NCBI RefSeq assembly: GCF_029350975.1
Contig: NZ_JARKMR010000002.1
Location: 62,001 to 126,000 of the forward strand
Direction: 5' to 3'
From: Maribacter zhoushanensis
Lineage (GTDB): Bacteria > Bacteroidota > Bacteroidia > Flavobacteriales > Flavobacteriaceae
DNA length: 64,000 nt
Made by a program: the position numbers and the translations under genes. The notes under the pieces are model-generated. The model did no database searches. It saw only the letters and a list, made by a program, of their open reading frames with translations, and was not told where the DNA came from. Each line of letters begins with the position of its first letter. Position 1 is the stretch's first letter. Below, one piece after another: positions 31,496 to 47,403 of this stretch.

Positions 31496-32824
31496 ATGAA
31501 GAAGAAGGTGGCTTTTTACACTTTGGGGTGTAAGTTGAATTTTTCAGAAACCTCTACTATAGCTCGTAGTTTTGCGGACGAAGGGTTTGATAGGGTAGAT
31601 TTTTCAGAAGAAGCAGATATGTATGTAATTAATACATGTTCTGTAACCGATAATGCTGATAAGAAATTTAAAACTATAGTAAAAAAAGCGCAAAAGATAA
31701 ATCCTGATGCTTTTGTTGCGGCTGTTGGTTGTTATGCTCAACTGAAACCTGAAGAATTAGCAGATGTAGACGGTGTAGATTTGGTTCTAGGTGCTACCGA
31801 GAAATTCAAGATTACAGATTATATAAATGATTTAACCAAAAATGATCATGGTAAGGTTCATTCTTGTGAAATAGCAGATGCTGATTTTTATGTAGGTAGC
31901 TATGCTATTGGAGCTAGAACAAGGGCTTTCTTGAAAGTTCAAGACGGTTGTGATTATAAATGTACTTATTGTACCATTCCTTTAGCACGTGGTATATCTA
32001 GAAGTGATACTTTAGAAAATGTGCTGAAGAATGCGGCAGATATATCTGCCCAAGGAATTAAAGAAATTGTTTTAACCGGTGTAAATATAGGCGACTATGG
32101 TAAAGGCGAGTTCGGTAATAAAAAACACGAACATACTTTTTTAGAATTAGTTGAAGCATTAGATGATGTGGACGGTATTCATCGTTTACGAATTTCATCA
32201 ATAGAGCCTAATCTTTTAAAAAACGAGACAATAGAGTTTGTTTCTCAAAGTAAATCGTTCGTACCCCATTTTCATATTCCTTTGCAGAGTGGTAGTGATG
32301 ATCTTCTAAAATTAATGAAGCGTCGTTATATGACTAATCTTTATAAGGAACGGGTAGAAAAGATTAGAGAGGTAATGCCAAACTGCTGTATTGGTGTAGA
32401 TGTGATAGTAGGATTTCCAGGAGAAACCGAAGAACATTTTCTTGAGACATATCATTTTTTAAACGATTTGGATATTTCATATCTCCATGTTTTTACCTAT
32501 TCAGAAAGAGATAACACACCCGCAGCTACTATGGACGGCGTAGTATCTAATAAAGTAAGAAGCAAAAGAAGTAAAATGTTACGTGGACTATCAGTTAAGA
32601 AAAGACGTGCGTTTTACGAGAGTCAGCTAGAGAATGAGTTGACCGTATTGTTTGAAGGTGAAAACAAAGAAGGTTATATTCATGGATTTACCGAAAATTA
32701 CGTAAAAGTAAAATCTCCTTGGAATCCTGAATTAGTGAATACGCTGCATAAAGTAAAGCTGACCGAGATCGATAAGGATGGTCTGGTTAGATTTAATTTT
32801 GTGAACGAGAAAGTAGAAGCATAA
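31496..32824 (+). CDS. mtaB: tRNA t6A37 methylthiotransferase MtaB
   Basis: A 442-residue radical-SAM methylthiotransferase that turns t6A37 into ms2t6A37 in tRNAs reading ANN codons. The N-terminal UPF0004 domain has the three cluster Cys at 12, 48 and 79 (TLGCKLN, INTCSVT, AVGCYAQ). The radical-SAM cluster is CDYKCTYC at 152-159. A C-terminal TRAM-like region begins near residue 375. The order and spacing match MtaB/YqeV rather than MiaB (GCKLN variant). A strong terminator follows. Confidence 0.94.
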   Translation: MKKKVAFYTLGCKLNFSETSTIARSFADEGFDRVDFSEEADMYVINTCSVTDNADKKFKTIVKKAQKINPDAFVAAVGCYAQLKPEELADVDGVDLVLGATEKFKITDYINDLTKNDHGKVHSCEIADADFYVGSYAIGARTRAFLKVQDGCDYKCTYCTIPLARGISRSDTLENVLKNAADISAQGIKEIVLTGVNIGDYGKGEFGNKKHEHTFLELVEALDDVDGIHRLRISSIEPNLLKNETIEFVSQSKSFVPHFHIPLQSGSDDLLKLMKRRYMTNLYKERVEKIREVMPNCCIGVDVIVGFPGETEEHFLETYHFLNDLDISYLHVFTYSERDNTPAATMDGVVSNKVRSKRSKMLRGLSVKKRRAFYESQLENELTVLFEGENKEGYIHGFTENYVKVKSPWNPELVNTLHKVKLTEIDKDGLVRFNFVNEKVEA

Positions 32825-32826
32825 AA

Positions 32827-32859
32827 AAAAGCCTTTCATCTGAAAGGCTTTTAAATTTT
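32827..32859. terminator. bidirectional terminator after mtaB
   Basis: AAAAGCCTTT (32827-32836) and AAAGGCTTTT (32843-32852) around CATCTG, A-run before, T-run after. The stem sequence is nearly the same as the one at 20470-20504. Confidence 0.88.
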
Positions 32860-33186
32860 TTAGATTCGAATACCAATAGGTAACATCTCTTTGTACTGTC
32901 TTCTGTTCTTACGAAGAAATCCTGCTATATGAGGACTTGTTGGAACAACTCTAAGATTTCTTTCTTGAATAATACTTAGAACGGCTTTGATAAAGTTTTC
33001 TTTGAAATCTTCATCTGTAATTTCTTCTGGAACCACTAATTTGGTAAGGAATACCTTTCGTTCTTGAGAAGAATATTCAATTCTGGCTAAATGTCCATCT
33101 ACGGTAGTTTCGAATTGACGCAGAAAAGAATTGTCATTAATGATAACATCGTTCATATAGATAATTTTAGTGTTGTTATTAGACAA
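32860..33186 (-). CDS. small GNAT-like N-acetyltransferase (YjdJ/COG2388 type)
   Basis: A 108-residue single-domain protein of the short GNAT branch: FETTVDGHLARIEYSSQERKVFL (beta strands), TKLVVPEEI, a helix NFIKAVLSIIQERNLRVVPT, and SPHIAGFLRKNRRQYKEML. It lacks part of the usual GNAT N-terminus, as is typical for this group; substrate unknown. Initiation may be at the ATG 10 codons in (MNDVIINDN), since homologues usually start close to that point. Converges on mtaB across a shared terminator. Confidence 0.75.
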   Translation of the reverse strand: MSNNNTKIIYMNDVIINDNSFLRQFETTVDGHLARIEYSSQERKVFLTKLVVPEEITDEDFKENFIKAVLSIIQERNLRVVPTSPHIAGFLRKNRRQYKEMLPIGIRI

Positions 33187-33345
33187 AAAAATTACGACGT
33201 TCTCATATCGTAATTAGTCTTTGGTAAATGCTGTACAGAATATAACACATGAAAATTGTTGTGTTTTTCGCATTATCCTACAAAAGTAGTTAAAAATTAC
33301 TTAATTTCCTAGTTTTTACTACGTTTCGTGACTATACTAGCTATT

Positions 33346-33996
33346 ATGATTCATGTCTATTGTATGCCTGGCATGGCGGCAAGTCCTGCTATTTTTGAGT
33401 ATATAAAACTACCAAAAGAAAATTTTGAGCTTCATTTTTTAGAATGGAATATTCCTACAAAAGGTGTAACTTTTAAAGCCTATGCTAAAAATATGTGTAG
33501 CAAAATACAGCACGAAAATGTAGTATTGCTGGGGGTGTCTTTAGGAGGACTTCTTGTTCAAGAAATGACTAAGTTTATCGATGTTAGAAAGGTGATTATT
33601 ATTTCTAGTGTAAAAACGAGATATGAGTTGCCAAAACGTATGTTGTTTGCAAGATATACTAGTGTACATAAACTGCTGCCCACAGGTTTGGTCAACAATG
33701 TGGAATTACTCGCCAAATATGCTTTTGGAGAAAGTGTAACCAAGAGACTTTCGTTATATGAAAAGTATTTATCTGTAAGGGATAAAAGTTATATAGATTG
33801 GTCCATAAATGAGTTGGTAAATTGGAAGCAAGAGGTGCCATGCGATAAATTAATTCATATACAAGGTGAAAAGGATACTGTTTTTCCAATAGATAATATT
33901 AGTAACTATATTTCTGTACCTAACGGAACACATACAATGATAATACACAGGGCAAAGTGGTTTAACGAGAACTTGCCAACAATTATTTTGGAATAA
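33346..33996 (+). CDS. alpha/beta hydrolase
   Basis: A 216-residue alpha/beta-hydrolase fold protein: oxyanion region VYCMPGMAASPAIF, nucleophile elbow VVLLGVSLGGLLVQEM, acid region HIQGEKDTVFPI and catalytic His in NGTHTMIIHRA. All triad positions are present. The open frame starts with GTG at 33328, but the ATG at 33346 is a more normal start and keeps the first beta strand. Substrate not readable; it lies alone before the lytic transglycosylase. Confidence 0.8.
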   Translation: MIHVYCMPGMAASPAIFEYIKLPKENFELHFLEWNIPTKGVTFKAYAKNMCSKIQHENVVLLGVSLGGLLVQEMTKFIDVRKVIIISSVKTRYELPKRMLFARYTSVHKLLPTGLVNNVELLAKYAFGESVTKRLSLYEKYLSVRDKSYIDWSINELVNWKQEVPCDKLIHIQGEKDTVFPIDNISNYISVPNGTHTMIIHRAKWFNENLPTIILE

Positions 33997-34061
33997 AATA
34001 GTTCTATATATACCTTTGGAAGGCAAGAAAGTTTGTAGAAATAAAATAAAAGATAAAATAC

Positions 34062-35018
34062 ATGAAGGCTATTAAAAATATATTGATGTTGTTGGGTGTG
34101 GTATTCGTTGCAGGTACATTAATATTTGCTGTGGGAAATACTGATAGCGTTGCGAGTAATGATAAAGTTGTTGTAAATGACAGCGTTCAGAAAAATGTAT
34201 CTAAATCTTATAAAATTTCATCTATAGATATACCCGAGAACTTAAATTTTGCAGGAGAGGTGGTACCACAGTCAGATCCAGAAATATTGGAGCGTATAGA
34301 CCGTGAATTTTTGGTAAATACCTACTGGCAATCAAATGCAGTATTATTGATTAAAAGGGCAAATAAGTTTTTTCCCATTATAGAACCAATTTTGGCTAAA
34401 AATGGCATTCCTGATGATTTTAAATATCTAGCGGTGGCAGAAAGTGGTTTAACCAATGTGGTTTCTCCGGCAGGTGCAACCGGGTTCTGGCAAATAATGA
34501 GAGAAACGGGTAGGGAGTATGGTTTAGAAGTGAACTCAAATGTAGATGAACGCTATCATTTAGAAAAGTCTACAGAGGTTGCTTGTAAATATTTAAACAG
34601 ATGGAAAAATAAGTATGGTAGCTGGGCTTTGACTGCTGCAGCTTACAATGCAGGTCCTGGAGCAATTAATAAGTACATGGGCATTCAGCAGGTAGATAAT
34701 TATTGGGATCTTTTGTTAGGTAGTGAAACCGGTAGATATGTATTTAGAATTATGGCTATCAAAGAAATTCTTTCTAATCCAGAAAAGTATGGTTTTCATA
34801 TCGAAAAAGAAGATATGTACGAAGCTGTACCTACATTTAATGTTGAAATTGACAAACCGGTAAGTGATTTTGCTGATTTTGCACAAGAATATGAAATCAA
34901 CTACAAAATATTAAAGCGCCACAATCCTTGGTTGAGAGAGGCGCATTTAAATAATAGTTCTCGTAAAAAATATACTATAGAAATCCCTAATAAAGGATAT
35001 TATAGAGAAACTAAATAG
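34062..35018 (+). CDS. membrane-anchored lytic transglycosylase (MltD-like)
   Basis: A 318-residue peptidoglycan lytic transglycosylase. N-terminal signal/anchor (ILMLLGVVFVAGTLIFAV), then the SLT domain with catalytic Glu127 in FKYLAVAESGLTN, followed by SPAGATGFWQIMRETGREYG and WALTAAAYNAGPGAI. The last about 60 residues (YEINYKILKRHNPWLREAHL) look like one LysM-type unit. It cleaves murein chains to 1,6-anhydro products in the periplasm. Ends 2 bp from the convergent TPR gene. Confidence 0.9.
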   Translation: MKAIKNILMLLGVVFVAGTLIFAVGNTDSVASNDKVVVNDSVQKNVSKSYKISSIDIPENLNFAGEVVPQSDPEILERIDREFLVNTYWQSNAVLLIKRANKFFPIIEPILAKNGIPDDFKYLAVAESGLTNVVSPAGATGFWQIMRETGREYGLEVNSNVDERYHLEKSTEVACKYLNRWKNKYGSWALTAAAYNAGPGAINKYMGIQQVDNYWDLLLGSETGRYVFRIMAIKEILSNPEKYGFHIEKEDMYEAVPTFNVEIDKPVSDFADFAQEYEINYKILKRHNPWLREAHLNNSSRKKYTIEIPNKGYYRETK

Positions 35019-35020
35019 TA

Positions 35021-35536
35021 TTAGATTTTCTTCATTTGTTGTTGCATCATTTTTATTTGATCTGTCAACATATTGTTTTTGTCTAATTTCTTAGCCTCGT
35101 TAAGCAGCATAGTAGCTTCTCTCTTACGACGTTTCTGCATAGATATACCAGCTAAGCTTAATTTTGCCATAGCAACATCATAATCCATAGTTAATCCAAG
35201 TTTGAGAGCTTTTTTAAAGTATTTCTCTGCTTGGGTTAAATTGGTTTGAGAAAAAATGATACCGTGTAAGTAGTTGTAGTAGCCTTGTTGTTTAACAGTT
35301 AATGCAGCTTCAGGGCTTTTAATTTTGTCTAACCAGTTTTTAGTTCCGGTTAAATCTTGTTTTCTCATTCTTAAAAATGCCAAAAGAATAATTTCGTTTC
35401 TAAAATAAAGAAAGATAAAAATTAAGGATAACAATATTAGAAATATGCCATTTCCAATATTACCTTCTATAAATTGGTACACGGAATAGGCGATTATTAG
35501 TCCGGCTATGATTAATTTTAAATTTTTATTGAACAT
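35021..35536 (-). CDS. small membrane protein with TPR-like region
   Basis: A 171-residue protein: two N-terminal transmembrane helices (about 8-25 and 28-47), then helical hairpins of TPR type (GYYNYLHGIIFSQTNLTQAEKYFKKALKLG; AMAKLSLAGISMQKRRKREATMLLNEAKKL), and a basic/Met-rich end. Probably a protein-interaction scaffold at the inner membrane. No partner can be named. Confidence 0.7.
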   Translation of the reverse strand: MFNKNLKLIIAGLIIAYSVYQFIEGNIGNGIFLILLSLIFIFLYFRNEIILLAFLRMRKQDLTGTKNWLDKIKSPEAALTVKQQGYYNYLHGIIFSQTNLTQAEKYFKKALKLGLTMDYDVAMAKLSLAGISMQKRRKREATMLLNEAKKLDKNNMLTDQIKMMQQQMKKI

Positions 35537-35702
35537 ATTTTGAGTTTATTAATCTAGTTGATGGTTAAAAAGGTTTTTTAGTTTTTATTGAAACCCTATT
35601 AAAATAAAGCGATTACAGCGCTAAATTTCAATCCGGGCAAAATTAATCAAAAGCTTGGTTTTGTGACGTACGGATTTATAAAAATATTTTTTTTCATAAC
35701 CC

Positions 35703-35732
35703 TTGCTAAAGCAAAAACTCTTTGTATATTTG
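35703..35732 (+). promoter_or_regulatory. rpmH promoter (-33 TTG, -7 TATATTTG)
   Basis: TTG at 35703-35705, 19-bp spacer, TATATTTG at 35725-35732: the closest match in the window to the full Bacteroidota promoter consensus. The leader of about 65 nt contains a weak CCC/GGG hairpin (about 35742-35766). Confidence 0.8.
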
Positions 35733-35803
35733 CGCCCAGTTTTACCCGTTCAATAAGAAGGGCAAATTTCAAAATTAATACAAAGCATTTAATTATATAG
35801 GCG

Positions 35804-35965
35804 ATGAGCAAGAGAACGTTTCAACCATCAAAGAGAAAAAGAAAGAACAAACACGGTTTTCGTGAGCGTATGGCTTCCGTTAATGGAAGAAAAGTTCTTG
35901 CAAGAAGAAGAGCAAAAGGAAGAAAGAAATTAACTGTTTCCTCTGAACCAAGCCATAAAAAATAA
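35804..35965 (+). CDS. rpmH: 50S ribosomal protein L34
   Basis: A 53-codon gene beginning [20 protein letters not shown], with [20 protein letters not shown], the invariant L34 core. The last about ten residues ([11 protein letters not shown]) are a short extension beyond the usual 44-47. It has its own strong promoter and terminator. dnaA and rnpA, often near rpmH in other phyla, are not adjacent here. Confidence 0.97.
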
Positions 35966-35990
35966 TGATTTCATTGTTTTAAAAATATTT

Positions 35991-36025
35991 AGGTGTTACT
36001 TTTCTGAAAGTAGCACCTTTTTTTT
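35991..36025 (+). terminator. terminator of rpmH
   Basis: AGGTGTTACTTT / AAAGTAGCACCT (one T-G wobble), TCTG loop, then a run of nine T. It separates rpmH from carB. Confidence 0.92.
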
Positions 36026-36054
36026 GTCCAATTCCCATATTAAATTGTTATAAA

Positions 36055-38907
36055 ATGCCAAAAAGAAAAGATTTAAACTCCATTTTACTAATAGGATCAG
36101 GTCCTATAGTTATCGGTCAAGCATGTGAATTTGATTATGCAGGTAGTCAATCTCTACGTTCGTTACGTGAAGATGGTATAGAAACTATTTTGATAAATAG
36201 TAACCCTGCAACAATTATGACAGATCCTTCAATGGCGGATCATGTGTATTTAAAACCGTTAACTACAAAATCTATAATAGAGATTTTAAAAGCTCATCCT
36301 CAAATTGATGCAGTGTTACCTACTATGGGAGGGCAGACTGCATTAAACCTTTGTATCGAAGCAGATAAAAAAGGAATTTGGGAAGATTTTGGAGTAGAAT
36401 TAATAGGTGTTGATATCGATGCCATTAATATTACTGAAGATAGAGAACAATTTAGGGAGCTAATGTTGAAAATTGGTGTTGGTATGGCGCCGCAAGCAAC
36501 GGCAACATCTTTCTTAAAGGGTAAAGAGATTGCTCAAGAATTTGGTTTTCCATTGGTAATACGAGCTTCTTATACACTAGGTGGTGCGGGAGCATCAATT
36601 GTTTATAAGCCAGAAGATTTTGATGAACAGTTAAGTTATGGTCTAGAGATTTCGCCTATTCATGAGGTGATGATCGATAAAGCCCTTATGGGTTGGAAAG
36701 AATATGAGTTAGAGCTGCTTAGGGATAAAAACGACAATGTTGTTATCATATGTGCTATTGAGAATATGGATCCAATGGGTATACATACCGGTGATTCTAT
36801 AACCGTAGCGCCAGCAATGACGCTTTCTGATAGAACGTACCAGAAAATGCGTGATATGGCAATACATATGATGCGTAGTATTGGTGATTTTGAAGGTGGT
36901 TGTAACGTGCAGTTTGCTGTTAGTCCTGACGAAGAAGAGGAAATTATAGCAATTGAAATAAACCCAAGAGTATCTAGGTCTTCTGCATTAGCTTCTAAAG
37001 CTACTGGTTATCCTATTGCTAAAGTAGCTACCAAATTAGCTATTGGTTATACGCTTGATGAGTTAGATAATCAAATTACTAAATCTACGTCGGCATTGTT
37101 TGAGCCTACTTTAGATTATGTAATTGTAAAAATACCACGTTGGAATTTCGATAAATTTGAAGGTTCTGACCGTACTTTAGGTCTTCAGATGAAATCTGTA
37201 GGTGAAGTAATGGGAATAGGGCGTTCTTTTCAAGAAGCGCTTCACAAAGCAACGCAGTCTTTAGAGATAAAGCGCAATGGTCTAGGAGCGGATGGAAAAG
37301 GGTATAAGGATTATAATAAAATTATAAGTAAGCTTACTATTCCAAGTTGGGATAGGGTATTTGTAATATATGATGCTATACAAATAGGTATTCCGTTAAG
37401 TAGAATACATGAGATCACTAAAATTGATATGTGGTTCTTAAAGCAATATGAAGAACTGTATTTCTTAGAAAAAGAGATTTCTAAATATACGATTGCCACA
37501 CTTTCAAAAGACTTATTGTTAGAAGCGAAACAAAAAGGATTTGCCGATAGACAAATAGCTCATATGGTAGATTGTTATGAAAGTGAAGTGTATAATAAGC
37601 GTACCGAGCTAAATATAAATAGAGTTTATAAGTTGGTAGATACTTGTGCTGCAGAGTTTAAAGCAATGACACCGTACTATTATTCAACTTTTGAAGCAGA
37701 GATAGAGAAACCCGATGGTACCAGATATGTAGAAAATGATAGTGTGGTAACCGACAAAAAGAAAATTGTAGTTCTTGGCTCTGGACCAAACAGAATAGGG
37801 CAAGGTATTGAATTTGACTATTGCTGTGTACATGGTGTTTTGGCTGCTGCTGAGTGTGGTTATGAGACTATTATGATCAACTGTAATCCAGAAACGGTTT
37901 CTACAGATTTTGATACTGCAGATAAATTGTATTTTGAACCGGTATATTGGGAGCATATATATGATATTATACGCCATGAAAAACCTGAGGGAGTAATTGT
38001 TCAATTAGGTGGGCAAACTGCTCTTAAATTGGCAGAAAAGCTTTCTAAATATGGTGTTAAGATTATAGGAACTAGTTTTGAAGCATTGGATTTAGCGGAA
38101 GACAGAGGTAGTTTTTCCGATTTATTAAAAGTAAATGATATTCCTTTCCCACAATTTGGAGTGGCTGAAACTGCAGATGAAGCATTGGCGCTTTCAGATG
38201 AATTAGATTTTCCACTTTTAGTTAGGCCGTCATACGTTCTAGGTGGTCAGGGAATGAAAATTGTAATTAATAAACAAGAACTAGAAGAGCATGTAGTTGG
38301 TTTATTGCGTAAAATACCAAATAACAAATTATTATTAGATCATTATTTGGATGGAGCTATAGAGGCTGAAGCTGATGCAATATGTGATGGCGAAGATGTA
38401 TATATTATTGGTATAATGGAGCATATTGAGCCTTGTGGTATTCACTCTGGAGATTCTAATTCTACCTTACCGCCATTTAACCTTGGTGAATTTGTAATGC
38501 AGCAAATTAAAGATCATACCAAGAAGATTGCCTTGGCTTTAAATACCGTAGGTCTGATCAATATACAGTTCGCTATTAAAGATGATATTGTATACATTAT
38601 TGAGGCTAACCCTAGAGCATCTCGTACAGTTCCTTTTATAGCGAAAGCGTATAAAGAACCTTATGTAAATTATGCAACTAAGGTAATGTTAGGTGAGAAG
38701 AAAATTAAAGATTTCAATTTCAATCCACAATTAGAAGGGTTTGCAATTAAACAACCAGTATTCTCTTTCAACAAATTCCCTAATGTAAATAAGAATTTAG
38801 GTCCTGAAATGAAAAGTACGGGCGAAAGCATTTTGTTTATTGATAGCTTAAAAGATGATGATTTTTATAATCTTTATGCTAGACGTAAAATGTATTTGAG
38901 TAAATAG
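36055..38907 (+). CDS. carB: carbamoyl-phosphate synthase large subunit, short form
   Basis: A 950-residue synthetase making carbamoyl phosphate from bicarbonate, ammonia (from CarA) and two ATP for pyrimidine and arginine synthesis. Both ATP-grasp halves are seen: N-half with ILLIGSGPIVIGQACEFDYA and AIEINPRVSRSSALASKATGY; C-half with VVLGSGPNRIGQGIEFDYC and YIIEANPRASRTVPFIAKAY. The protein ends at about the position where the E. coli enzyme (1073 residues) begins its MGS-like allosteric domain, so UMP/ornithine control through that domain cannot occur as in E. coli. carA is not adjacent. Confidence 0.96.
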   Translation: MPKRKDLNSILLIGSGPIVIGQACEFDYAGSQSLRSLREDGIETILINSNPATIMTDPSMADHVYLKPLTTKSIIEILKAHPQIDAVLPTMGGQTALNLCIEADKKGIWEDFGVELIGVDIDAINITEDREQFRELMLKIGVGMAPQATATSFLKGKEIAQEFGFPLVIRASYTLGGAGASIVYKPEDFDEQLSYGLEISPIHEVMIDKALMGWKEYELELLRDKNDNVVIICAIENMDPMGIHTGDSITVAPAMTLSDRTYQKMRDMAIHMMRSIGDFEGGCNVQFAVSPDEEEEIIAIEINPRVSRSSALASKATGYPIAKVATKLAIGYTLDELDNQITKSTSALFEPTLDYVIVKIPRWNFDKFEGSDRTLGLQMKSVGEVMGIGRSFQEALHKATQSLEIKRNGLGADGKGYKDYNKIISKLTIPSWDRVFVIYDAIQIGIPLSRIHEITKIDMWFLKQYEELYFLEKEISKYTIATLSKDLLLEAKQKGFADRQIAHMVDCYESEVYNKRTELNINRVYKLVDTCAAEFKAMTPYYYSTFEAEIEKPDGTRYVENDSVVTDKKKIVVLGSGPNRIGQGIEFDYCCVHGVLAAAECGYETIMINCNPETVSTDFDTADKLYFEPVYWEHIYDIIRHEKPEGVIVQLGGQTALKLAEKLSKYGVKIIGTSFEALDLAEDRGSFSDLLKVNDIPFPQFGVAETADEALALSDELDFPLLVRPSYVLGGQGMKIVINKQELEEHVVGLLRKIPNNKLLLDHYLDGAIEAEADAICDGEDVYIIGIMEHIEPCGIHSGDSNSTLPPFNLGEFVMQQIKDHTKKIALALNTVGLINIQFAIKDDIVYIIEANPRASRTVPFIAKAYKEPYVNYATKVMLGEKKIKDFNFNPQLEGFAIKQPVFSFNKFPNVNKNLGPEMKSTGESILFIDSLKDDDFYNLYARRKMYLSK

Positions 38908-38955
38908 TCCAATAACAGGACTTAAGTTATAAGTAGGAGGGAGACTTTGATTATT

Positions 38956-40581
38956 TTAAAGTTTCCCTTCTGCGAATAATCTTCTTATTTCTTTCTTGTC
39001 AAATTTACCAACACTTGTTTTTGGCACTTCCTCAATGAACTTATAATTTTCTGGAATTTGATAGTTGGCAAAATCTTTACTTAAGTATTCTTTCAATTCT
39101 TCAACAGAAACATGATTATTGCTATCGGCCAAGACCAATGTAGCCAAAGGTCTTTCTGACCATTTTTTATCAGGTATGGCAATTACCGCAGCCTCTCTAA
39201 TTTTTGGGTGTGACATTAATGCCAATTCCAAAGCAACACTAGAAATCCATTCACCGCCACTTTTAATTAAGTCTTTAGTTCGATCAGTGATTTCCATGTA
39301 TCCATTTTCATCAATAGTACTCACGTCACCAGTTCTAAACCAACTGTCTTTTGTAAAGTTATCACGACTATTGGTCTTGAAATAAGACTTTATTACCCAA
39401 GCCCCTTTTACCTGTAATTCTCCCATGGTTTTGCCATCACGTGGAGCAACCTTTCCATCATCGCCGACAATACGCATTTCTATGCCTGGAAACTCTATTC
39501 CCTGCTTGGCACGTATTTTAATTTGCTCCTTGTTACTAAGGCTTTCGTGTTTTTTCTGAAGCCTACTGGCTGTGCCAAGTGGAGATGTTTCTGTCATACC
39601 CCAAGCTTGAACACCTTTTATACCAAAATCCTTTTCAAAATTTTCTATAAGACTTGCAGATAATGCAGAACCGCCAACTAAATATTCTTCTAAAGCTAAT
39701 TTTTTCTTTGGCGGATTTTGTTTCATTTCCTCATAAACACCTCTCCAAATAGAAGGTACCCCGTTAGCCTTATTTATATTCTCGCTTTCCAGAATTCTAA
39801 TAATAGCATCTGGTCTCAGGTGTAAAGAAGGCATTACCATATCTGAACCAGTTAAAAGGCACATGTATGGAAAACCCCAAGCCATAACATGAAACTGTGG
39901 TACAATGAGTAAAACAATGTCTTTATTGCTATAATTACCTGCATTAGGGGTGAGAATGGTCATAGCGTGCAAATACGTAGATCTGTGTGAGTATAATACA
40001 CCTTTGGGCATACCTGTAGTTCCACTGGTATAGCACATACCACTTGCATCGTTCTCATTTAGCTCAGGCCATTCAATAGTTTCTAATTGCTCTCCTATTA
40101 AGTCTTCATAATGTATTGTATTTGGTAAGGAGGTAGTGAAACCTTTGGGTGCGTTAATAATAATATACTTTTCTACGGTCTCTAATTTTGGTGCAATTTT
40201 TTCCAATAGAGGAACCAGGGTGGCATCTACAAAAATGACCTTATCCTCAGAATGGTTAATTATAAATTCTGTCTGTTGAGATGATAATCTAATATTTATA
40301 GTGTGGCATACCGCTCCAATACCAGGTATTCCATAATATAGTTCTACATGCTGATAATGGTTCCATGCAAAAGTGCCAACCATATCGCCTTTGGTAATAC
40401 CAAGCTTGTTTCTTAAGGCATTCGCCAATTGACAACATCTTTTGTATAGTTGACCGTAATTATATTCATGCCTACTACCATCTGGTAAGTAAGAGATTAG
40501 TTTTTTATCAGGAAAAGCACTTCTTGCATAATTTAATATGGTAGTTGTGGTTAGTGGGTAATCCATTATTAATCCATTCAT
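38956..40581 (-). CDS. fatty-acyl-CoA ligase, medium/long-chain (AlkK-like)
   Basis: A 541-residue ANL-superfamily ligase: P-loop ASGMCYTSGTTGMPKGVLYSH, adenine block QAWGMTETSPLGTAS, and hinge SWFRTGDVSTIDENGYMEITDRTKDLIKSGGEWIS, with a C-terminal lysine region PKTSVGKFDKKEIR. Closest in style to AlkK/FadK medium-chain ligases. A shorter start (MDYPLT, five codons in) is equally possible. Monocistronic on the minus strand, convergent with carB. Confidence 0.9.
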   Translation of the reverse strand: MNGLIMDYPLTTTTILNYARSAFPDKKLISYLPDGSRHEYNYGQLYKRCCQLANALRNKLGITKGDMVGTFAWNHYQHVELYYGIPGIGAVCHTINIRLSSQQTEFIINHSEDKVIFVDATLVPLLEKIAPKLETVEKYIIINAPKGFTTSLPNTIHYEDLIGEQLETIEWPELNENDASGMCYTSGTTGMPKGVLYSHRSTYLHAMTILTPNAGNYSNKDIVLLIVPQFHVMAWGFPYMCLLTGSDMVMPSLHLRPDAIIRILESENINKANGVPSIWRGVYEEMKQNPPKKKLALEEYLVGGSALSASLIENFEKDFGIKGVQAWGMTETSPLGTASRLQKKHESLSNKEQIKIRAKQGIEFPGIEMRIVGDDGKVAPRDGKTMGELQVKGAWVIKSYFKTNSRDNFTKDSWFRTGDVSTIDENGYMEITDRTKDLIKSGGEWISSVALELALMSHPKIREAAVIAIPDKKWSERPLATLVLADSNNHVSVEELKEYLSKDFANYQIPENYKFIEEVPKTSVGKFDKKEIRRLFAEGKL

Positions 40582-40800
40582 AAAAACACACTTTTAAGTT
40601 ATAATAATTGTTTGACCATTAAATTTAATGAATTTAAAATGAGAAATCATCACAATTTTAACATTATAAAATGTGAATTAATTATAGTTAGTTGATAATG
40701 TGATGTATACTTTTTTAAGATTAAAAAATAATTTTATTAGATAATTCAAGACTAGTGTTTATCAGTAAACTTGCTTAGTTGAAAAATAAATTATTAGAGA

Positions 40801-42078
40801 TTGAAAAGAGTACTATTAGTAGTGATTTTATTAATGTTGGTGTTTTTAGGGTTGACGTATTGGTCATTATCTAGCACGGATAAAACTTTTGATACCTGTG
40901 AGATTATTGGACTTTCTGATGTAGAGAAAATAGATTTTAAAGCGTATGATTCGGTATTGGTTGCTGCAAGTACTCTTTATGAGGGTAATAGTTTAAAAAA
41001 TGTAATGCAGGGAGAGCAATATAGAAAAGCATGGTCTACACCTGTAAAAGTTCCTATTTTATACTTAAGTGATATTGATGATGATTTAAAGGTGTTGGAA
41101 GAAGGTGGCGGAAAACAGACACATTCTTTAAAAGTTCAGAGAGGTGATGGTACTTTAATGACTTTACGTAGTGTTTCTAAAGATCCTTCGCCTTTAGTGC
41201 CAAAAGTGGCTAAGACATTGGGTATAGAAAATATAATTGTCGACGGTATTTCTGCTCAACATCCTTATGCGGCATTAGTGGTAGCAAAACTTTCTGAGAA
41301 AGCAAAAATCCTTAACACCAGGCCAAAGGTCGTATACGTGCCAAAACATGAACAGTTATCTAGTTATAATAACAAATACGGAAATAGACTATTTCTTTTG
41401 GAGTATGAAACAAAGGGTAATGCAAACTGGTTAGGACTTAAAAATGTAGATTCATTAGTGGACACTGATAATCTGCAAGAACTGAAAATAAACAATGCTA
41501 GCAGGGTTAGTATAGATGAAAAGTCTCTGGTTAAGGCACGTTTATTTGATTTGTTAATAGGTGATTGGGACCGTCATGCCAAACAATGGGGCTGGGCAAT
41601 TGAGAATATTGGCGATTCTATAAATGCAATTCCATTACCATGTGATAGAGATAATGCTTTTTTTAATTTAGAAGGTGTTTTGCCTACTATAATTTCTAAC
41701 AATAAATTTCTTCCAGAAGTGCAATCATTTGAAAAAGAAATTGATTTTTTATCAGGTCTCATTTCTCTATTTGATGTTTATTTTATGCGAGATATTCCGC
41801 CATCTGTATTTGAACAAGAAGCGAAGAAATTACAACAATTGTTAACTGATGAAGCTATTGAATCATCTTTCTCCGTTTGGCCTGAAGATATATTTGAACT
41901 GGATGGAAGAGAGCTCATCAGCAAAATCAAAAGCAGAAGAAATAATCTAGTAAACTATGCAAAGCTGTATCAGCAAGAATTGGTTAAAAGTGAAAAATTG
42001 ACCAAAGCTTTAAAAGGGTCTGAAGATGTGAAAATGACCAAAGCGCAAATGGCATGTTTTAATTGTGTGATAGATTAG
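40801..42078 (+). CDS. membrane-anchored protein with atypical-kinase-like motifs
   Basis: A 425-residue protein with one N-terminal transmembrane helix (VLLVVILLMLVFLGLTYW) and the rest outside or in the periplasm. Residues about 110-160 (RGDGTLMTLRSVSKDPSP, VDGISAQHPYAALVVAKL) and 245-290 (KARLFDLLIGDWDRHAKQWGW, PLPCDRDNAFFN) match a region that in many Bacteroidota is fused to metallophosphatases and outer-membrane barrels; GDWDRH..QW and DRD look like the catalytic loop and metal Asp of atypical kinases (HipA/PI3K/Fam20-like). Here it is free-standing. Starts with TTG. Ends MACFNCVID. It lies 38 bp before the HD/PycTM gene and is probably co-transcribed. Function unknown. Confidence 0.6.
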   Translation: MKRVLLVVILLMLVFLGLTYWSLSSTDKTFDTCEIIGLSDVEKIDFKAYDSVLVAASTLYEGNSLKNVMQGEQYRKAWSTPVKVPILYLSDIDDDLKVLEEGGGKQTHSLKVQRGDGTLMTLRSVSKDPSPLVPKVAKTLGIENIIVDGISAQHPYAALVVAKLSEKAKILNTRPKVVYVPKHEQLSSYNNKYGNRLFLLEYETKGNANWLGLKNVDSLVDTDNLQELKINNASRVSIDEKSLVKARLFDLLIGDWDRHAKQWGWAIENIGDSINAIPLPCDRDNAFFNLEGVLPTIISNNKFLPEVQSFEKEIDFLSGLISLFDVYFMRDIPPSVFEQEAKKLQQLLTDEAIESSFSVWPEDIFELDGRELISKIKSRRNNLVNYAKLYQQELVKSEKLTKALKGSEDVKMTKAQMACFNCVID

Positions 42079-42116
42079 TCTACGCATAGCATTTTATAAT
42101 CAATAAACTTGAAATT

Positions 42117-43337
42117 ATGACTGAAATTACAGTAACAAAAGCTGAAAAATATATAAAGAATTTGTTATCGGAACAGATGAACAAAAACTTTCTATTTCAT
42201 AGTCAAAGTTATGCCAGTAAAACTGTAAAAAAAGCAAATAAGATACTAGAATCTTCAGCAAATGAAAATATTGATCCGGATAGCGTGTTATTAGCTACGT
42301 GGTTTCTTCATGCTGGATTTTCAATAGATTATGATAATCATGTTCAAGAGAGTGTGTATTTGGCTACTAACTTTTTACAAGAAAATAGTTGTCCACAGAA
42401 TGAAATTACTTTTGTGGTTCAATTAATAGAGCGCGCATGGAAAAATGATAAACCTAAAAATGAAGCTGAAGCCATTGTGAAAGATGTTTGTACATGGTTT
42501 TATGCATCAGAAGATTTTGAAGAAATGCTTCAGTTATTGCGGTTAGAGTTAGAAAATTTCAATGGAACCAATCCTGATTTAGATACATGGAGGCTAAACT
42601 ATCTTGAAAAACTTAGAATAGAGCATAGATATTATACTGACTTTGCCAAAGAAAATTGGCAGGAACAGAAAGAAGAAAATATTTTATCGTTAATATCTAG
42701 ATTACAGAAAGCTGAAAAAACAGAAAAGAAAGAAATACTAAAAGCTAAATTAAAAGATGAGAGTCCGCAGCGGGCAATTCAATCTTTATACCGTATAGAA
42801 CTTAGAAATCATATTAAATTGAGTGATATAGCTGATACCAAAGCAAATATTCTATTGTCGGTCAATGCAATTATTATTTCGTTATTGTTAGCAAATCTAA
42901 TACCAAAACTAGATACACCATCTAATTCATATCTTATTTATCCAACGGTAATTTTTGTTCTTTTTAGTATAGCTTCCATGATTATGTCGGTACTGGCAAC
43001 AAGACCAAAAGTGGATAATACAAATGTGGTAGAAGAAGATATTAAGAAGAAGGATACCAATTTCTTATTCTTTGGAAATTTTCATGCTATGGAGTTGGGT
43101 GACTTTAAATCCAAATTAAGAGATATTATAAAAAGTAAAGAATCTATCTATGACTCTTTAAGTATGGATTTATACTATCTGGGTAAAGTATTGCAAGAGA
43201 AGTATAGATTGTTACGCTGGACGTATACTGTATTTATTATAGGTGTAATATTATCGGTTATTGCGTTTGGCTTTGCATTAAAATACTATGGTATGGAAGA
43301 TGAACTTTTAGATGCTGTAACGCCTGTACCGAAATAA
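42117..43337 (+). CDS. degenerate HD-domain protein with Pycsar-type TM effector domain
   Basis: A 406-residue protein. Residues about 1-190 look like an HD phosphohydrolase domain (FHSQSYASKTVKKANKIL, LLATWFLHAGFSIDYDNHVQ, ERAWKNDKPKNEAEAIVKDV), but the HD dyad appears replaced by Leu-His in WFLHAGF, so it is probably inactive. Residues about 220-395 match the PycTM effector type: RIELRNHIKLSDIADTKANI, helices near 243-262, 270-291 and 371-392, and LRWTYTVFIIG. PycTM proteins in Pycsar anti-phage systems respond to cCMP or cUMP and damage the membrane. No cyclase gene is visible nearby, so this is an orphan or a different signalling protein. Co-transcribed with the kinase-like gene upstream. 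Confidence 0.75.
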   Translation: MTEITVTKAEKYIKNLLSEQMNKNFLFHSQSYASKTVKKANKILESSANENIDPDSVLLATWFLHAGFSIDYDNHVQESVYLATNFLQENSCPQNEITFVVQLIERAWKNDKPKNEAEAIVKDVCTWFYASEDFEEMLQLLRLELENFNGTNPDLDTWRLNYLEKLRIEHRYYTDFAKENWQEQKEENILSLISRLQKAEKTEKKEILKAKLKDESPQRAIQSLYRIELRNHIKLSDIADTKANILLSVNAIIISLLLANLIPKLDTPSNSYLIYPTVIFVLFSIASMIMSVLATRPKVDNTNVVEEDIKKKDTNFLFFGNFHAMELGDFKSKLRDIIKSKESIYDSLSMDLYYLGKVLQEKYRLLRWTYTVFIIGVILSVIAFGFALKYYGMEDELLDAVTPVPK

Positions 43338-43348
43338 TCAATTAGTCA

Positions 43349-43687
43349 TTAATTAAACCAGACCGCATATTTTTTGCGTCTAAGTTCAAGTGCTAATTGC
43401 TCCTCCATTTTTAAAGCGTCTGTTCTTGATTTAATAGGGTCTATATGATTAAAGAGACTGCCACGTAAATACAAACCGTATTTCTGTACAATTGTAGAAG
43501 AAAGTTTATGTCCTTTTTTACTTAATGTGCCGTTCTTATGCTGGTCAAAACGTTCCTTTGGAGTCTTGCTGGTCATACCAACATAAAGACATTCTAATAC
43601 TCCGTTGAATTGTGGATTAGCTTCCCGAAATTTTCTGTTCTCGGAAAACACTTTTTTAGATAATTCAATAACGTAAATAAAATACAT
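43349..43687 (-). CDS. GIY-YIG nuclease superfamily protein
   Basis: A 112-residue single-domain protein with the GIY-YIG core split as YFIYVIEL and LECLYVGMTSKTPKERFDQHKNG, plus KKYGLYL-like region VQKYGLYLRGSLFNH and a late Glu (KMEEQLALELRRK) as metal ligand. Similar to UPF0213/YhbQ-like small members with an insertion between the two halves. No intron or mobile-element context. Convergent with the HD/PycTM gene, 11 bp apart. Confidence 0.8.
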   Translation of the reverse strand: MYFIYVIELSKKVFSENRKFREANPQFNGVLECLYVGMTSKTPKERFDQHKNGTLSKKGHKLSSTIVQKYGLYLRGSLFNHIDPIKSRTDALKMEEQLALELRRKKYAVWFN

Positions 43688-43735
43688 ATGAAGTAGTATG
43701 AAAAATAGACTTTAATATATTTTTATTGATTTAGG

Positions 43736-44275
43736 CTATTCTTCAGTAATCTCAATTCCTTCTGTGGTAAAAGAAAAAGCTTGCGCACCTAAGCCACCTA
43801 CCATCACTGCTTGAAATAACGGTTTTAATTGTTTTTTGGAGTACCAGTCAATTAAGAAATTAGCACCACTACCACCAGAGGTATCTTGTTGTTCAATAAC
43901 ATAATCAATAGATTCCATTGGGGTAAGGTAAATAGGGGAGTCTATGTAGCTCCTGACCAAATCACCTTCCGTATTGTAATAATCAATTTTACTAACGAAT
44001 AAACTGTCTTTTAAGCTGGTATTTCTAATGCTTAAAGTAGCGGTAAGTAGAGTTCTTGAATCTCTTGTCTGATTATAGATGTCAGAGTATATAGGAACAT
44101 ATACCTCTCTGGTAAGAGTATCGTTTAAAGTAGCATTTGCCGTTCTGTCTAAAGTATGGTTATCAAGTATTTCTACAGGAATTTCTTCTTTAGATGTTTG
44201 CTTACAAGATAATATTGTAGTGGCAAAAACAGCTATAAGGCAAATGCTACTAAAAGATATATTTAATTTTCTCAA
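43736..44275 (-). CDS. DUF3124 lipoprotein
   Basis: A lipoprotein of about 179 residues with DUF3124: VYVPIYSDIYNQTRDSRTLL, TATLSIRNTS, DYYNTEGDLVRSY, YLTPMESIDYVIEQQDTSGG and SGANFLIDWYSK. An ATG frame begins at 44320, inside the end of gnd, but the first 15 residues are charged and not signal-like. A TTG at 44275 gives MRKLNISFSSICLIAV and a normal lipobox ILSC, and removes the overlap; I prefer it. Function unknown. Confidence 0.72.
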   Translation of the reverse strand: MRKLNISFSSICLIAVFATTILSCKQTSKEEIPVEILDNHTLDRTANATLNDTLTREVYVPIYSDIYNQTRDSRTLLTATLSIRNTSLKDSLFVSKIDYYNTEGDLVRSYIDSPIYLTPMESIDYVIEQQDTSGGSGANFLIDWYSKKQLKPLFQAVMVGGLGAQAFSFTTEGIEITEE

Positions 44276-44285
44276 TTGATATTGT

Positions 44286-45686
44286 TTAATCTTCCCATTC
44301 TGTATGAAAAATACCTTCACGGTCTAAACGCTCATACGTATGAGAACCAAAGTAATCTCTTTGCGCTTGAATAAGGTTCAAAGGTAATTTGCTAGAAGTA
44401 TAGGCATCAAAATAAGTAAGTGAATTGGATAAACCAGGTAACGGAATTCCATTCTTTGCACCAAAAGCTACCAGCTCTCTTGCTGCGTCAACAGTTTCTT
44501 TTACTTTATCTACAAAATTTGATGAAAGTAACAAATTAGGTAGTGTTGGTTCAGCCTTAAATGCTTCTGTGATATCTGCTAATAAGCCAGCGCGTATAAT
44601 ACAGCCTGCTCTCCATATTTTAGCAATTTCAGAAATGTCTAAGTCGTAACCATATTCCCTAGAGGCATCTGCTAATTGATGTAAACCTTGAGAGTATGTG
44701 ATTATAAATGAGAAGTACAAAGCCTTTTCCGTTAATGCTTCTAGCTTCTCTTTGTCCATATGGGCTACCGTTGGTCTATCATAAAGAGCATCGGCTTTAA
44801 TTCTTTCGTCTTTTAGTGCAGAAAGTTCACGCATACTCACGGCAACATCTATAGAAGGAACAGGAATACCTAAATCCATCGCATTTTGACTTGTCCATTT
44901 ACCGGTACCTTTTTGCTTTGCCTTATCTAAGATTTGATCAACTAATCTCCCTTTTACCAATTCATCTTCTTGTTCAAAAATTGCAGAAGTTATTTCAACT
45001 AAGAAAGATTGTAACCTTCCTGAATTCCATTTTGCAAAAGTGCTGTGTAATTCATCATTATCATAATCTCCTCCTTTTTTAAGAACATCATAGATTTCAG
45101 AAGTTAATTGCATTAATCCATATTCTATACCGTTATGAACCATTTTTACGTAGTTTCCGGCAGATTTTGGACCTAAATATGCTACACAAGGTTCGCCATT
45201 ATATTTAGCCGATACAGCTTCAAAAATTGGTTTAATATGTTCGTAGGCAGATTTTGATCCACCCGGCATAATACTAGGTCCTTTACGTGCACCTTTAGCG
45301 CCACCAGAAACACCTGCGCCAAAAAAGTTGATATCTTTCTCTTGTAAATAAGCTTCTCTTCTGTCAGTATCTGTAAAGAAAGAGTTTCCTCCATCAATAA
45401 TTATATCTCCTTCATCAATATGTGGTAATAAGGATTCTATTACGCCATCTACAATTTTACCTGCAGGAACCAAAAGCATAATTTTACGTGGTTGCTTAAG
45501 GTTTTTTACAAACGTTTTTATGTTGCTAGAGGCACTTACTTTATCTAAATCTCCTCCTAAAGTCTTTAAAGCCTCTACTTTTTCGTCATCTAAATCATAT
45601 CCATAGGCAGAAAATCCGTTATCGGCTACATTAAGGATAAAATTTTGTCCCATTACTCCAAGACCTACTAAACCAAAATCGTACAT
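44286..45686 (-). CDS. gnd: 6-phosphogluconate dehydrogenase, decarboxylating
   Basis: A 466-residue NADP-dependent enzyme giving ribulose 5-phosphate and CO2. N-terminal Rossmann motif FGLVGLGVMGQNFILNVADN; substrate sites GAGVSGGAKGARKGPSIMPGG and MVHNGIEYGLMQL (catalytic Lys/His neighbourhood); C-terminal LIQAQRDYFGSHTYERLD. Full length. Divergent from zwf-pgl across a 184-bp region, together the oxidative pentose phosphate pathway. Confidence 0.96.
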   Translation of the reverse strand: MYDFGLVGLGVMGQNFILNVADNGFSAYGYDLDDEKVEALKTLGGDLDKVSASSNIKTFVKNLKQPRKIMLLVPAGKIVDGVIESLLPHIDEGDIIIDGGNSFFTDTDRREAYLQEKDINFFGAGVSGGAKGARKGPSIMPGGSKSAYEHIKPIFEAVSAKYNGEPCVAYLGPKSAGNYVKMVHNGIEYGLMQLTSEIYDVLKKGGDYDNDELHSTFAKWNSGRLQSFLVEITSAIFEQEDELVKGRLVDQILDKAKQKGTGKWTSQNAMDLGIPVPSIDVAVSMRELSALKDERIKADALYDRPTVAHMDKEKLEALTEKALYFSFIITYSQGLHQLADASREYGYDLDISEIAKIWRAGCIIRAGLLADITEAFKAEPTLPNLLLSSNFVDKVKETVDAARELVAFGAKNGIPLPGLSNSLTYFDAYTSSKLPLNLIQAQRDYFGSHTYERLDREGIFHTEWED

Positions 45687-45719
45687 AAATTGAATGTTTT
45701 ATAATTAGAATACATTATA

Positions 45720-45755
45720 ATGTTACAATTTTTAATTATTTATTGTTTGTAACAT
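45720..45755. promoter_or_regulatory. inverted repeat in gnd-zwf divergent region
   Basis: ATGTTACAA (45720-45728) and TTGTAACAT (45747-45755), perfect 9-bp arms with an 18-bp spacer. It sits just downstream of the gnd -7 element, over the expected transcription start, so it could be a regulator site. No known regulator is assigned. Confidence 0.45.
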
Positions 45756-45764
45756 AATGTGAAT

Positions 45765-45772
45765 CAAAAATA
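45765..45772 (-). promoter_or_regulatory. -7 element for gnd
   Basis: The minus strand reads TATTTTTG (TAnnTTTG), about 80 bp before the gnd start. Confidence 0.5.
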
Positions 45773-45870
45773 ATTTAAAATATTGACTTTAAATCCAAAT
45801 TGTATCTTAATAACGCCCGATAATGGCTTAGTTTTTAAGATATTTGAAGAATAAAGAATATCAACCTATA

Positions 45871-47403
45871 ATGAAAAAGACAGAAAATCAAATGCTCGTA
45901 ATTTTTGGGGCATCTGGAGATTTAACGGCAAGAAAACTTATACCAGCTATATTCAATTTATATAAGGGAAATGAGTTACCTGATAATTTTGTGGTGTTGG
46001 GTGTGAGTAGGAGTGATTTAGGCGATTTACAATTTAGAAGTAAGGTAGTTTTAGAAAGCCCATATTTAGAAAAAGAACGAGAAGAGTTTGATAATGATTT
46101 CATTGAAAAGTTCGCAAATAAACTTTTTTACGAAGATTTAGGTTCTGATTATGATACATCTTATGAGCGTTTAGAAAAACGTATTTCAGATTTAGATCAG
46201 AAATACGGTACGGACGGCAACCATATGTTCTACTTATCTACACCGCCAAGTCTATATCAGCCAATTGCAAAAAATTTATCTGACCAAGGTTTAAATAATG
46301 AAAAAAATGGTTGGAGAAGGTTGATTGTTGAGAAGCCATTTGGTTATAGTTTAGATTCTGCCAAAGAATTAAATGACGGTTTACATACTTATTTTAAGGA
46401 AGGTCAAATATTCAGAATAGATCATTATTTGGGTAAAGAAACAGTTCAGAATTTATTGGTAACACGTTTTGCCAATAGTATTTTTGAGCCACTTTGGAAC
46501 AGAAATTATATTCATCATGTAGAGATTACCAATGCAGAAAGTGTTGGTGTTGAAAAAAGAGGTGGATATTATGATAAATCTGGGGCATTGAGAGATATGT
46601 TTCAGAGTCATTTGTTACAGATAGTTGCTTTGATTGTAATGGAGCCGCCTTTAAGTGCAGATGCAGAAGAAATTCGTAATGAAAAGCTGAAAGCATTGAA
46701 GTCGCTTAGGATTATGAATGACGAGAAAACACTTTTTGAAAATACAATTAGAGCACAATATGTATCTTCTAAAATTGACGGGCAAGAAGTAAAAGGATAT
46801 AGAGAAGAAGAGGGGGTTGATGAAAATTCAACAACAGAAACCTTTGCGGCAGTTAAATTTTTTGTTGATAACTGGCGTTGGGCAGATGTTCCTTTTTACG
46901 TGAGAACGGCAAAACGTATGCCTACAAAAGTAACAGAGGTAGTTATACATTTTAAAACTCCGCATCATCAAATTTTTAAGGAATCTGGAATTAATAATAA
47001 GGATAACAAATTAGTTATTCGAATTCAGCCAGATGAAGGTATTCTAATTAAGTTTGGTGTAAAAGTACCGGGACAAGGATTTGAGGTAGAACGTGCAAAT
47101 ATGGATTTCTATTACTCTAGTTTGTCAGAAACAAATGTTATGGAAGCCTATGAGCGTCTATTATTAGATGCAATGCAAGGTGATGCTACATTATATGCAA
47201 GAGCAGATGAAGTTGAAGCGGCATGGGCTTTTGTAGATCCAATTCTTGAATATTGGAATAGTGGTAAGGATGTAAAAATGTACGGTTATGCAGCCGGTGT
47301 TTGGGGTCCAGAAAATGCCAATGAGCTTATTGAAGGTGTTGGGGAATGGAGAAACCCTAGTGAAAACTTAGCAGATGAATCTGGCTATTGTGTTATTTGC
47401 TAA
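45871..47403 (+). CDS. zwf: glucose-6-phosphate dehydrogenase
   Basis: A 510-residue enzyme oxidising glucose 6-phosphate to 6-phosphogluconolactone with NAD(P). Nucleotide-binding motif LVIFGASGDLTARKLIPAI, conserved substrate site RIDHYLGKETVQNLLVTRF, and late RIQPDEGI. The frame opens at a TTG at 45844, but the ATG at 45871 places the Rossmann motif at the normal distance and is chosen. Followed by pgl after 33 bp, same strand. Confidence 0.95.
   Translation: MKKTENQMLVIFGASGDLTARKLIPAIFNLYKGNELPDNFVVLGVSRSDLGDLQFRSKVVLESPYLEKEREEFDNDFIEKFANKLFYEDLGSDYDTSYERLEKRISDLDQKYGTDGNHMFYLSTPPSLYQPIAKNLSDQGLNNEKNGWRRLIVEKPFGYSLDSAKELNDGLHTYFKEGQIFRIDHYLGKETVQNLLVTRFANSIFEPLWNRNYIHHVEITNAESVGVEKRGGYYDKSGALRDMFQSHLLQIVALIVMEPPLSADAEEIRNEKLKALKSLRIMNDEKTLFENTIRAQYVSSKIDGQEVKGYREEEGVDENSTTETFAAVKFFVDNWRWADVPFYVRTAKRMPTKVTEVVIHFKTPHHQIFKESGINNKDNKLVIRIQPDEGILIKFGVKVPGQGFEVERANMDFYYSSLSETNVMEAYERLLLDAMQGDATLYARADEVEAAWAFVDPILEYWNSGKDVKMYGYAAGVWGPENANELIEGVGEWRNPSENLADESGYCVIC

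Follow-up and report, generated by a model that had tools for sequence, protein, structure and literature searches.

As outlined in PMC11224242, Pycsar consists of the cyclase PycC plus PycTM or PycTIR, and PMC4886424 presents the DUF2652 family as predicted guanylate-cyclase-like proteins. PycTM proteins have been named and annotated after phage defence. Two genes of Maribacter zhoushanensis, one of them encoding a PycTM protein, were analyzed within a 64,000-nucleotide stretch of its genome, referred to below as the window (GCF_029350975.1, contig NZ_JARKMR010000002.1, positions 62,001 to 126,000 of the forward strand). These are co-directional open reading frames (ORFs) on the + strand, gene 1 at 40801-42078 and gene 2 at 42117-43337, with 38 bp between them as an initial annotation had described; both were confirmed as real genes, and the closest relatives of both proteins are Maribacter proteins. 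PycTM genes of this kind are chromosomal across much of the phylum Bacteroidota, where they lie near the gene for an outer-membrane protein with a kinase fold and, in some lineages, near a cyclase or PPK1 gene. A core envelope signalling or regulation module fits the evidence better than phage defence does, and our preferred, tentative reading is that the pair may couple an inner-membrane nucleotide-responsive protein to an envelope kinase as a duplicated and specialised copy of a widespread Bacteroidota envelope module.

The kinase family to which gene 1 belongs consists mostly of Omp85 fusions, many of them carrying a metallophosphatase domain. Three open frames of 1201-1260 aa in the host genome carry the gene 1 kinase domain, so the proposed kinship to metallophosphatase/barrel fusions held, and the same genome encodes three further PycTM proteins, two of them with an HD domain. 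On host contig C12 one fusion (metallophosphatase by Pfam, with a weak outer-membrane match) and one intact HD-PycTM gene (336909-338123) are divergent and 42 bp apart. Linkage was counted in a family scan and in two phylum-sample scans, one for kinase genes and one for PPK1, all figures being raw counts, given without a chance expectation, that matches left out can only have lowered. For 299 Flavobacteriaceae genomes, 150 listed gene-2-family matches were compared with 153 gene-1-family matches (150 listed and three from the host genome): a gene-1-family match lay within 15 kb of 66/150, with a divergently oriented fusion accounting for 59, a tandem standalone gene 1 for 5 and other layouts for 2. 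Conversely, 61/76 fusions in genomes with a listed gene-2-family match were near one, and gene-2-family matches occurred in 221/299 genomes. In a sample of 247 genomes from the phylum, linkage within 15 kb was found in 25/26 genomes of the same family and 42/65 others among those with a kinase match; the linked genes could be divergent, on one strand or convergent, and HD and PycTM were sometimes separate genes. The count used all 117 listed kinase matches and 109 of about 150 listed HD/PycTM matches, with the weakest omitted.

The window pair itself was followed in 80 named gene 1 loci. The gene 2 orthologue was the next ORF in 14 (13 downstream, 1 in swapped order), so the conservation of the pair across genomes raised in the initial annotation holds within one clade, and any HD-PycTM gene was present in the flank of 20. 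As the named loci were fetched for holding gene 1, their pairing rates are biased, a bias from which the gene 2 scan is free. Records with the pair come from Maribacter, Arenibacter, Pricia, Euzebyella and Pareuzebyella, but some other records of these genera are without it (one Arenibacter locus, L096, and one Pricia locus, L139, lack gene 2). Among the listed matches of gene 2's own type (>55% identity), five of six sit 40-121 bp from a standalone gene 1 and the sixth lies 16.6 kb from one (genome G215). Gene 2 is hardly seen without gene 1, and the neighbourhood of the two genes exceeds chance.

The window pair is a derived, specialised paralogue of this Bacteroidota-wide linkage; the arrangement that the initial annotation had suggested to be new is thereby corrected to a derived copy of a wider one. 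In a tree of the PycTM halves of 64 HD-PycTM proteins, from which ten duplicate loci had been removed, the 19 proteins with a degenerate HD domain formed one group, consistent with a single change. Support for the group was moderate (90/83; not a starred branch), and 92% of the bootstrap trees likewise gave one change. A C-terminal tail like KYYGMEDELLDAVTP, a pattern defined after the sequences had been inspected, was present in 16/19 degenerate-HD proteins of the tree and 0/45 intact ones, the exceptions being an Algibacter protein, a Winogradskyella protein and one protein lacking its C-terminus. Across 118 full-length relatives, 81 had the tail without the HD motif, 18 the HD motif without the tail, none had both and 19 had neither; the last group included 12 with a near-variant tail, one whose HD domain was missed by the pattern (P0226) and one without its C-terminus (P0208). 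Because P0217, P0218, P0220, P0223 and P0224 are further degenerate-HD proteins that lack the exact tail and lie outside the tree, the single HD loss is valid only for the 64 tree sequences.

Gene 1 contains the following features, its start being the TTG picked by the ORF tool.

40801 to 42078, + strand: gene 1, membrane-anchored kinase-like protein of 425 aa with a predicted PI4KII/CotH/CtkA/HipA fold (ORF, alignment, predicted structure)
40810 to 40866, + strand: N-terminal hydrophobic segment, residues 4-22 (hydropathy 2.55; flank charges +2 before, -2 after)
41104 to 41127, + strand: glycine-rich loop, residues 102-109, with G102-G104, Q106 and S109 invariant (63-sequence alignment)
41560 to 41589, + strand: putative catalytic-loop motif GDWDRHAKQW, residues 254-263 (alignment)
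41644 to 41652, + strand: DRD motif, residues 282-284, with D282 and D284 invariant (alignment)
42055 to 42066, + strand: C-terminal CFNC, residues 419-422 (sequence)

The segment at residues 4-22 is the only hydrophobic segment of gene 1, and the protein is predicted from its flank charges to be oriented N-in with a periplasmic kinase domain. The N-terminal anchor and the GDWDRH and DRD motifs noted at the outset are present. Residues G254, W256-H259, Q262, D282 and D284 are invariant across the 63 aligned sequences, and a C..C motif falls within the last 25 aa of 77/79 standalone gene 1 proteins. A catalytic Asp, a metal Asp and the glycine-rich loop are present, with roles assigned by analogy to the fold family. 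From the structural model, gene 1 is confidently predicted to adopt the kinase fold of the CotH/PI4KII/CtkA/HipA type, as the initial annotation had supposed from its kinase-like look, and phosphotransfer is putative. Structural alignments to CotH, PI4KII, CtkA and HipA gave about 9-16% identity. A gene 1 profile searched against PDB sequences matched CtkA alone, with the DRH motif aligned to that of CtkA; single-sequence searches of PDB sequences returned no match for gene 1 or gene 2. Membership of a curated kinase family was ruled out, gene 1 matching neither Pfam nor NCBIfam. In the Pfam search (E up to 1, filters removing most matches above 0.1) the best match was DUF1598 at 0.055, under its cut-off, and not CotH, and no phosphatase domain or Omp85 barrel was matched in the 425 aa.

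Gene 2 contains the following features.

42117 to 43337, + strand: gene 2, degenerate HD domain plus PycTM, 406 aa (ORF, Pfam, predicted structure)
42117 to 42722, + strand: HD-fold domain, residues 1-202, with a predicted YpgQ-like/class I phosphodiesterase fold (predicted structure, ligand comparison)
42849 to 42905, + strand: hydrophobic segment 1, residues 245-263, overlapping the near-invariant NHxxLSDIADTKANILLSVNA (231-251) (hydropathy, alignment)
42918 to 43244, + strand: PycTM Pfam match, residues 268-376 (Pfam)
42945 to 43001, + strand: hydrophobic segment 2, residues 277-295 (hydropathy)
43224 to 43280, + strand: hydrophobic segment 3, residues 370-388, flank charges +3/-3 (hydropathy)
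43281 to 43325, + strand: C-terminal tail KYYGMEDELLDAVTP, residues 389-403, typical of the degenerate-HD clade of the window (sequence comparison)

Both halves proposed for gene 2, a degenerate HD domain and PycTM, were recovered. The PycTM part matched PF18967 (5.1e-31) and the PADLOC PycTM model (1.8e-19), and the HD fold was seen with one of four metal ligands kept (D122); H31, H63 and D64 are replaced by Y, L and H (numbering of the intact paralogue L067:8910-10124). All four ligands were kept in 47/74 family proteins examined and not in the remaining 27. Structure prediction of both proteins thus returned the kinase and HD folds as anticipated; the PycTM identity of gene 2 rests on sequence matches only, its fold being barely tested by structure because the HD domain filled the structural match list. 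The tail is predicted from hydropathy and the charge pattern to face the periplasm, the compartment also predicted for the kinase, and is a candidate contact with gene 1. The inner membrane probably separates the kinase domain from the HD domain.

For the window compared with eight Maribacter loci, median dN/dS was 0.086 for the kinase, 0.132 for HD and 0.032 for PycTM; pairs with saturated synonymous sites were excluded (18-32 of 36 retained) and the remaining dS is high, so that with synonymous sites near saturation these ratios are rough. Every tested part of both genes is under purifying selection. Since selection persists although the HD ligands are lost, the HD domain most likely binds a nucleotide or partner and does not hydrolyse.

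The upstream neighbours are presumably carB and an acyl-CoA synthetase, and farther downstream lie what we take to be gnd and then zwf, names given from the look of the sequence without a family search; directly downstream of the pair are a GIY-YIG protein and a DUF3124 protein (Pfam). Five flanking families were checked in nine pair-bearing Maribacter loci: all five are retained in seven, four in one and two in the other. The flanks look housekeeping-like and the setting looks like core chromosome. No PADLOC model was matched at 1e-3 by any of 8 neighbours (window 31496-47400), and the defence island that the initial annotation had raised is not supported as the leading reading. Promoter and terminator scans returned no more sites than shuffled sequences.

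Cyclases were found near related loci. The out-of-family group f23, which is Balneolaceae judged by the names among its protein matches, has a class III cyclase with TPRs (PF00211, 1.2e-11) after the fusion. When 27 genomes selected for having PycTM or kinase matches were searched, a close homologue of this cyclase (E<1e-200) followed the fusion in 19/19 genomes that had one, an adjacency based on ORFs in five loci (L173, L174, L183, L197 and L198) and on spacing elsewhere. A separate HD gene with its motifs present comes after PycTM at L174. In two Balneolaceae genomes cyclase and PycTM share a single ORF (L195:6999-8069 and L196:6349-7437), and 55/120 relatives of this protein among the matches listed have both Pfam domains, including proteins from Balneola sp. 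MJW-20 and Rhodohalobacter mucosus. The whole host genome contains 0 matches to PF00211, so a canonical class III cyclase was not found there. The description of the arrangement as being without any cyclase is therefore true of the window locus and, by PF00211, of its genome, and does not extend to the family, since class III cyclases accompany PycTM at related loci, either as neighbours or in one polypeptide with it. Of the 20 strongest DUF2652 matches (19 genomes), 10 had a gene-1- or gene-2-family match no more than 20 kb away, against about 0.5 expected, and the other 10 lacked such proximity; DUF2652 matches occurred in 71/299 genomes and not in 228. The host DUF2652 gene (contig C10) is 2.8 kb from another HD-PycTM paralogue and not at the window locus.

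Topology, sensing of a nucleotide signal by the degenerate HD domain, signal direction, tail contact, kinase activity and substrate are inferred steps of the preferred reading. The parental module would comprise an outer-membrane-tethered fusion, often a metallophosphatase followed by a PI4KII/CotH-fold kinase and then an Omp85 barrel, and, encoded next to it, a PycTM protein of the inner membrane that carries an HD phosphohydrolase domain. A class III nucleotide cyclase is added in some lineages, PPK1 plus SixA in others. In the window copy the kinase would have been freed from phosphatase and barrel and held by a single N-terminal helix. The HD-PycTM protein would sense a cytosolic nucleotide-type signal, and its membrane segments and clade-specific tail may relay its state through the inner membrane to the kinase domain; alternatively, the state of the kinase could be relayed inwards. 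The outcome would be tuned phosphorylation of an envelope substrate.

Several observations weigh against this reading. No HD-PycTM gene lies in the flank of 60/80 named gene 1 loci, some of whose flanks are short, and 34/39 listed standalone gene 1 matches have no adjacent gene-2-family match; as most gene 1 copies have no gene 2 nearby, gene 1 does not need gene 2. Linkage is missing from 23/65 out-of-family genomes, and 2 of the 42 linked ones depend on an HD-only match, while PycTM directly follows the cyclase in only 10/19 genomes. Foldseek TM-scores of the gene 1 model were low, about 0.3-0.5 in the top ten. The whole-protein model of gene 2 (pLDDT 81.2) had a pTM of 0.52, and no solved structure matching its PycTM part was present among the matches listed. 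The periplasm is also not known to have an ATP pool, so an active kinase there would require another donor.

A phage-defence cassette of the Pycsar type lacking its own cyclase, in which the kinase would sense or modify, PycTM perforate the membrane and the infected cell die, would accommodate the PADLOC PycTM match, a weak match of gene 1 to the PADLOC candidate model PDC-M03A (1.8e-06) and the class III cyclases that accompany PycTM in Balneolaceae relatives. We consider it improbable, given flanks that are largely kept in the nine Maribacter loci, eight neighbours without a PADLOC match at 1e-3, a gene-2 family that at 221/299 genomes is very general for a patchy defence system, a PycTM dN/dS of 0.03 and a genome without a PF00211 cyclase. 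It is just as improbable in our judgement that the genes are uncoupled neighbours, with a kinase-like gene and a decaying HD-PycTM paralogue drifting in tandem: the lost HD ligands and the many copies of gene 1 without gene 2 would fit, but the two families are linked time and again, whether in tandem, swapped, divergent, same-strand or convergent order, purifying selection acts on both genes throughout, and a clade-specific tail accompanies HD loss. A further reading, which we consider equally improbable, is that the kinase domain is cytosolic or catalytically dead and, located on the same membrane side as gene 2, regulates or scaffolds it in the manner of HipA. The fold is common to cytosolic HipA, and the lack of a known periplasmic ATP pool would favour that placement; against it stand the charges flanking the single helix (+2 before, -2 after), the invariant catalytic motifs and the fusions, which place the same domain before an Omp85 barrel and whose N-termini are lipoprotein-like by eye in 13/16 cases (lipobox pattern in 8/16; one gene, L083 and L135, is counted twice).

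Phosphate or polyphosphate handling is the strongest alternative theme, although as an account of the pair it is unlikely. PPK1-made polyphosphate, SixA, an HD phosphohydrolase and the phosphatase/kinase fusion would together handle envelope phosphate. When 150 listed PPK1 matches of the phylum sample were compared with 47 HD/PycTM matches picked by eye for a shared genome or contig, the two lay within 15 kb in 14 genomes and less than 1.3 kb apart in 11. HD-PycTM, SixA, PPK1 and kinase-Omp85 genes are clustered at L175 (3346-10149) and L176, and likewise without SixA at L180; some Arenibacter, Zobellia and Pareuzebyella loci with a standalone gene 1 also have a PAP2 phosphatase gene close to it. 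However, PPK1 is present in 222/247 genomes, which makes its adjacency a minority layout, the two PPK1 genes of the host (C16:92394 and C11:288890) are both away from the window pair, and the cyclases are left unexplained. A bolder form of the preferred reading, unlikely as a whole, is a conserved non-defence trans-envelope system in which PycTM would couple a cytosolic nucleotide signal to an outer-membrane-tethered PI4KII/CotH-fold kinase acting on envelope substrates. A class III or DUF2652 cyclase would produce the signal and HD would remove or sense it, and because PPK1 adjoins HD-PycTM in some lineages, polyphosphate is perhaps the kinase donor. The window pair would then be a branch in which HD has turned sensor and PycTM has acquired a periplasmic tail for the freed kinase.

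Further observations concern related loci. At L074:6416-17540 (G054) an HD-PycTM gene is followed by three tandem fusion-family genes. At L072, L073, L186 and L188, genes that, by the look of the sequence, we take to be methionine sulfoxide reductase-like lie between HD-PycTM and the fusion. The host also has a PycTM-only paralogue of 212 aa (L069:7221-7856, contig C16), adjoined by what is presumably, again by its look, a cation/proton antiporter gene. A conserved protein of ~790 aa (family F3, L067:6546-8918) is recurrent beside HD-PycTM; it had no Pfam match at L067, and weak GAF matches were seen in one relative.

No description of the HD-PycTM and kinase linkage was found in the titles and abstract openings of the open-access papers listed by the searches, which is no proof of novelty, and no family name was found for the metallophosphatase-kinase-Omp85 fusions. 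If the linkage serves housekeeping signalling, the name 'Pycsar system effector family' would mislead in many Bacteroidota annotations, and an extracytoplasmic kinase system would be open to gene-deletion testing in this phylum. The fusions (about 1200-1260 aa) share the kinase domain of gene 1 at 24-31% identity, whereas gene 1 is without phosphatase and barrel and ends in a conserved CxxC. Gene 1 is predicted from its model to share the fold of the CotH, PI4KII, CtkA and HipA kinases, with the DRH motif of CtkA aligned, and differs from them in its low identity and the absence of a Pfam match. Residues 1-202 of gene 2 have a fold in common with YpgQ-like HD phosphohydrolases but differ in their ligands, D122 alone being kept. 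DUF2652 cyclase-like proteins are near gene-1- or gene-2-family matches in half of the 20 strongest cases, yet are absent from the window locus. The likeness to Pycsar (PycTM, PF18967, also DUF5706; PycC cyclases) lies in the PycTM domain of gene 2 and in the Balneolaceae relatives, where PycTM has a class III cyclase as neighbour or fusion partner, and the window locus differs in having no adjacent cyclase, an attached HD domain, a core-looking setting and a partner kinase. Were the trans-envelope system real, the PycTM effectors of Pycsar would be recruits from, or cousins of, a housekeeping system.

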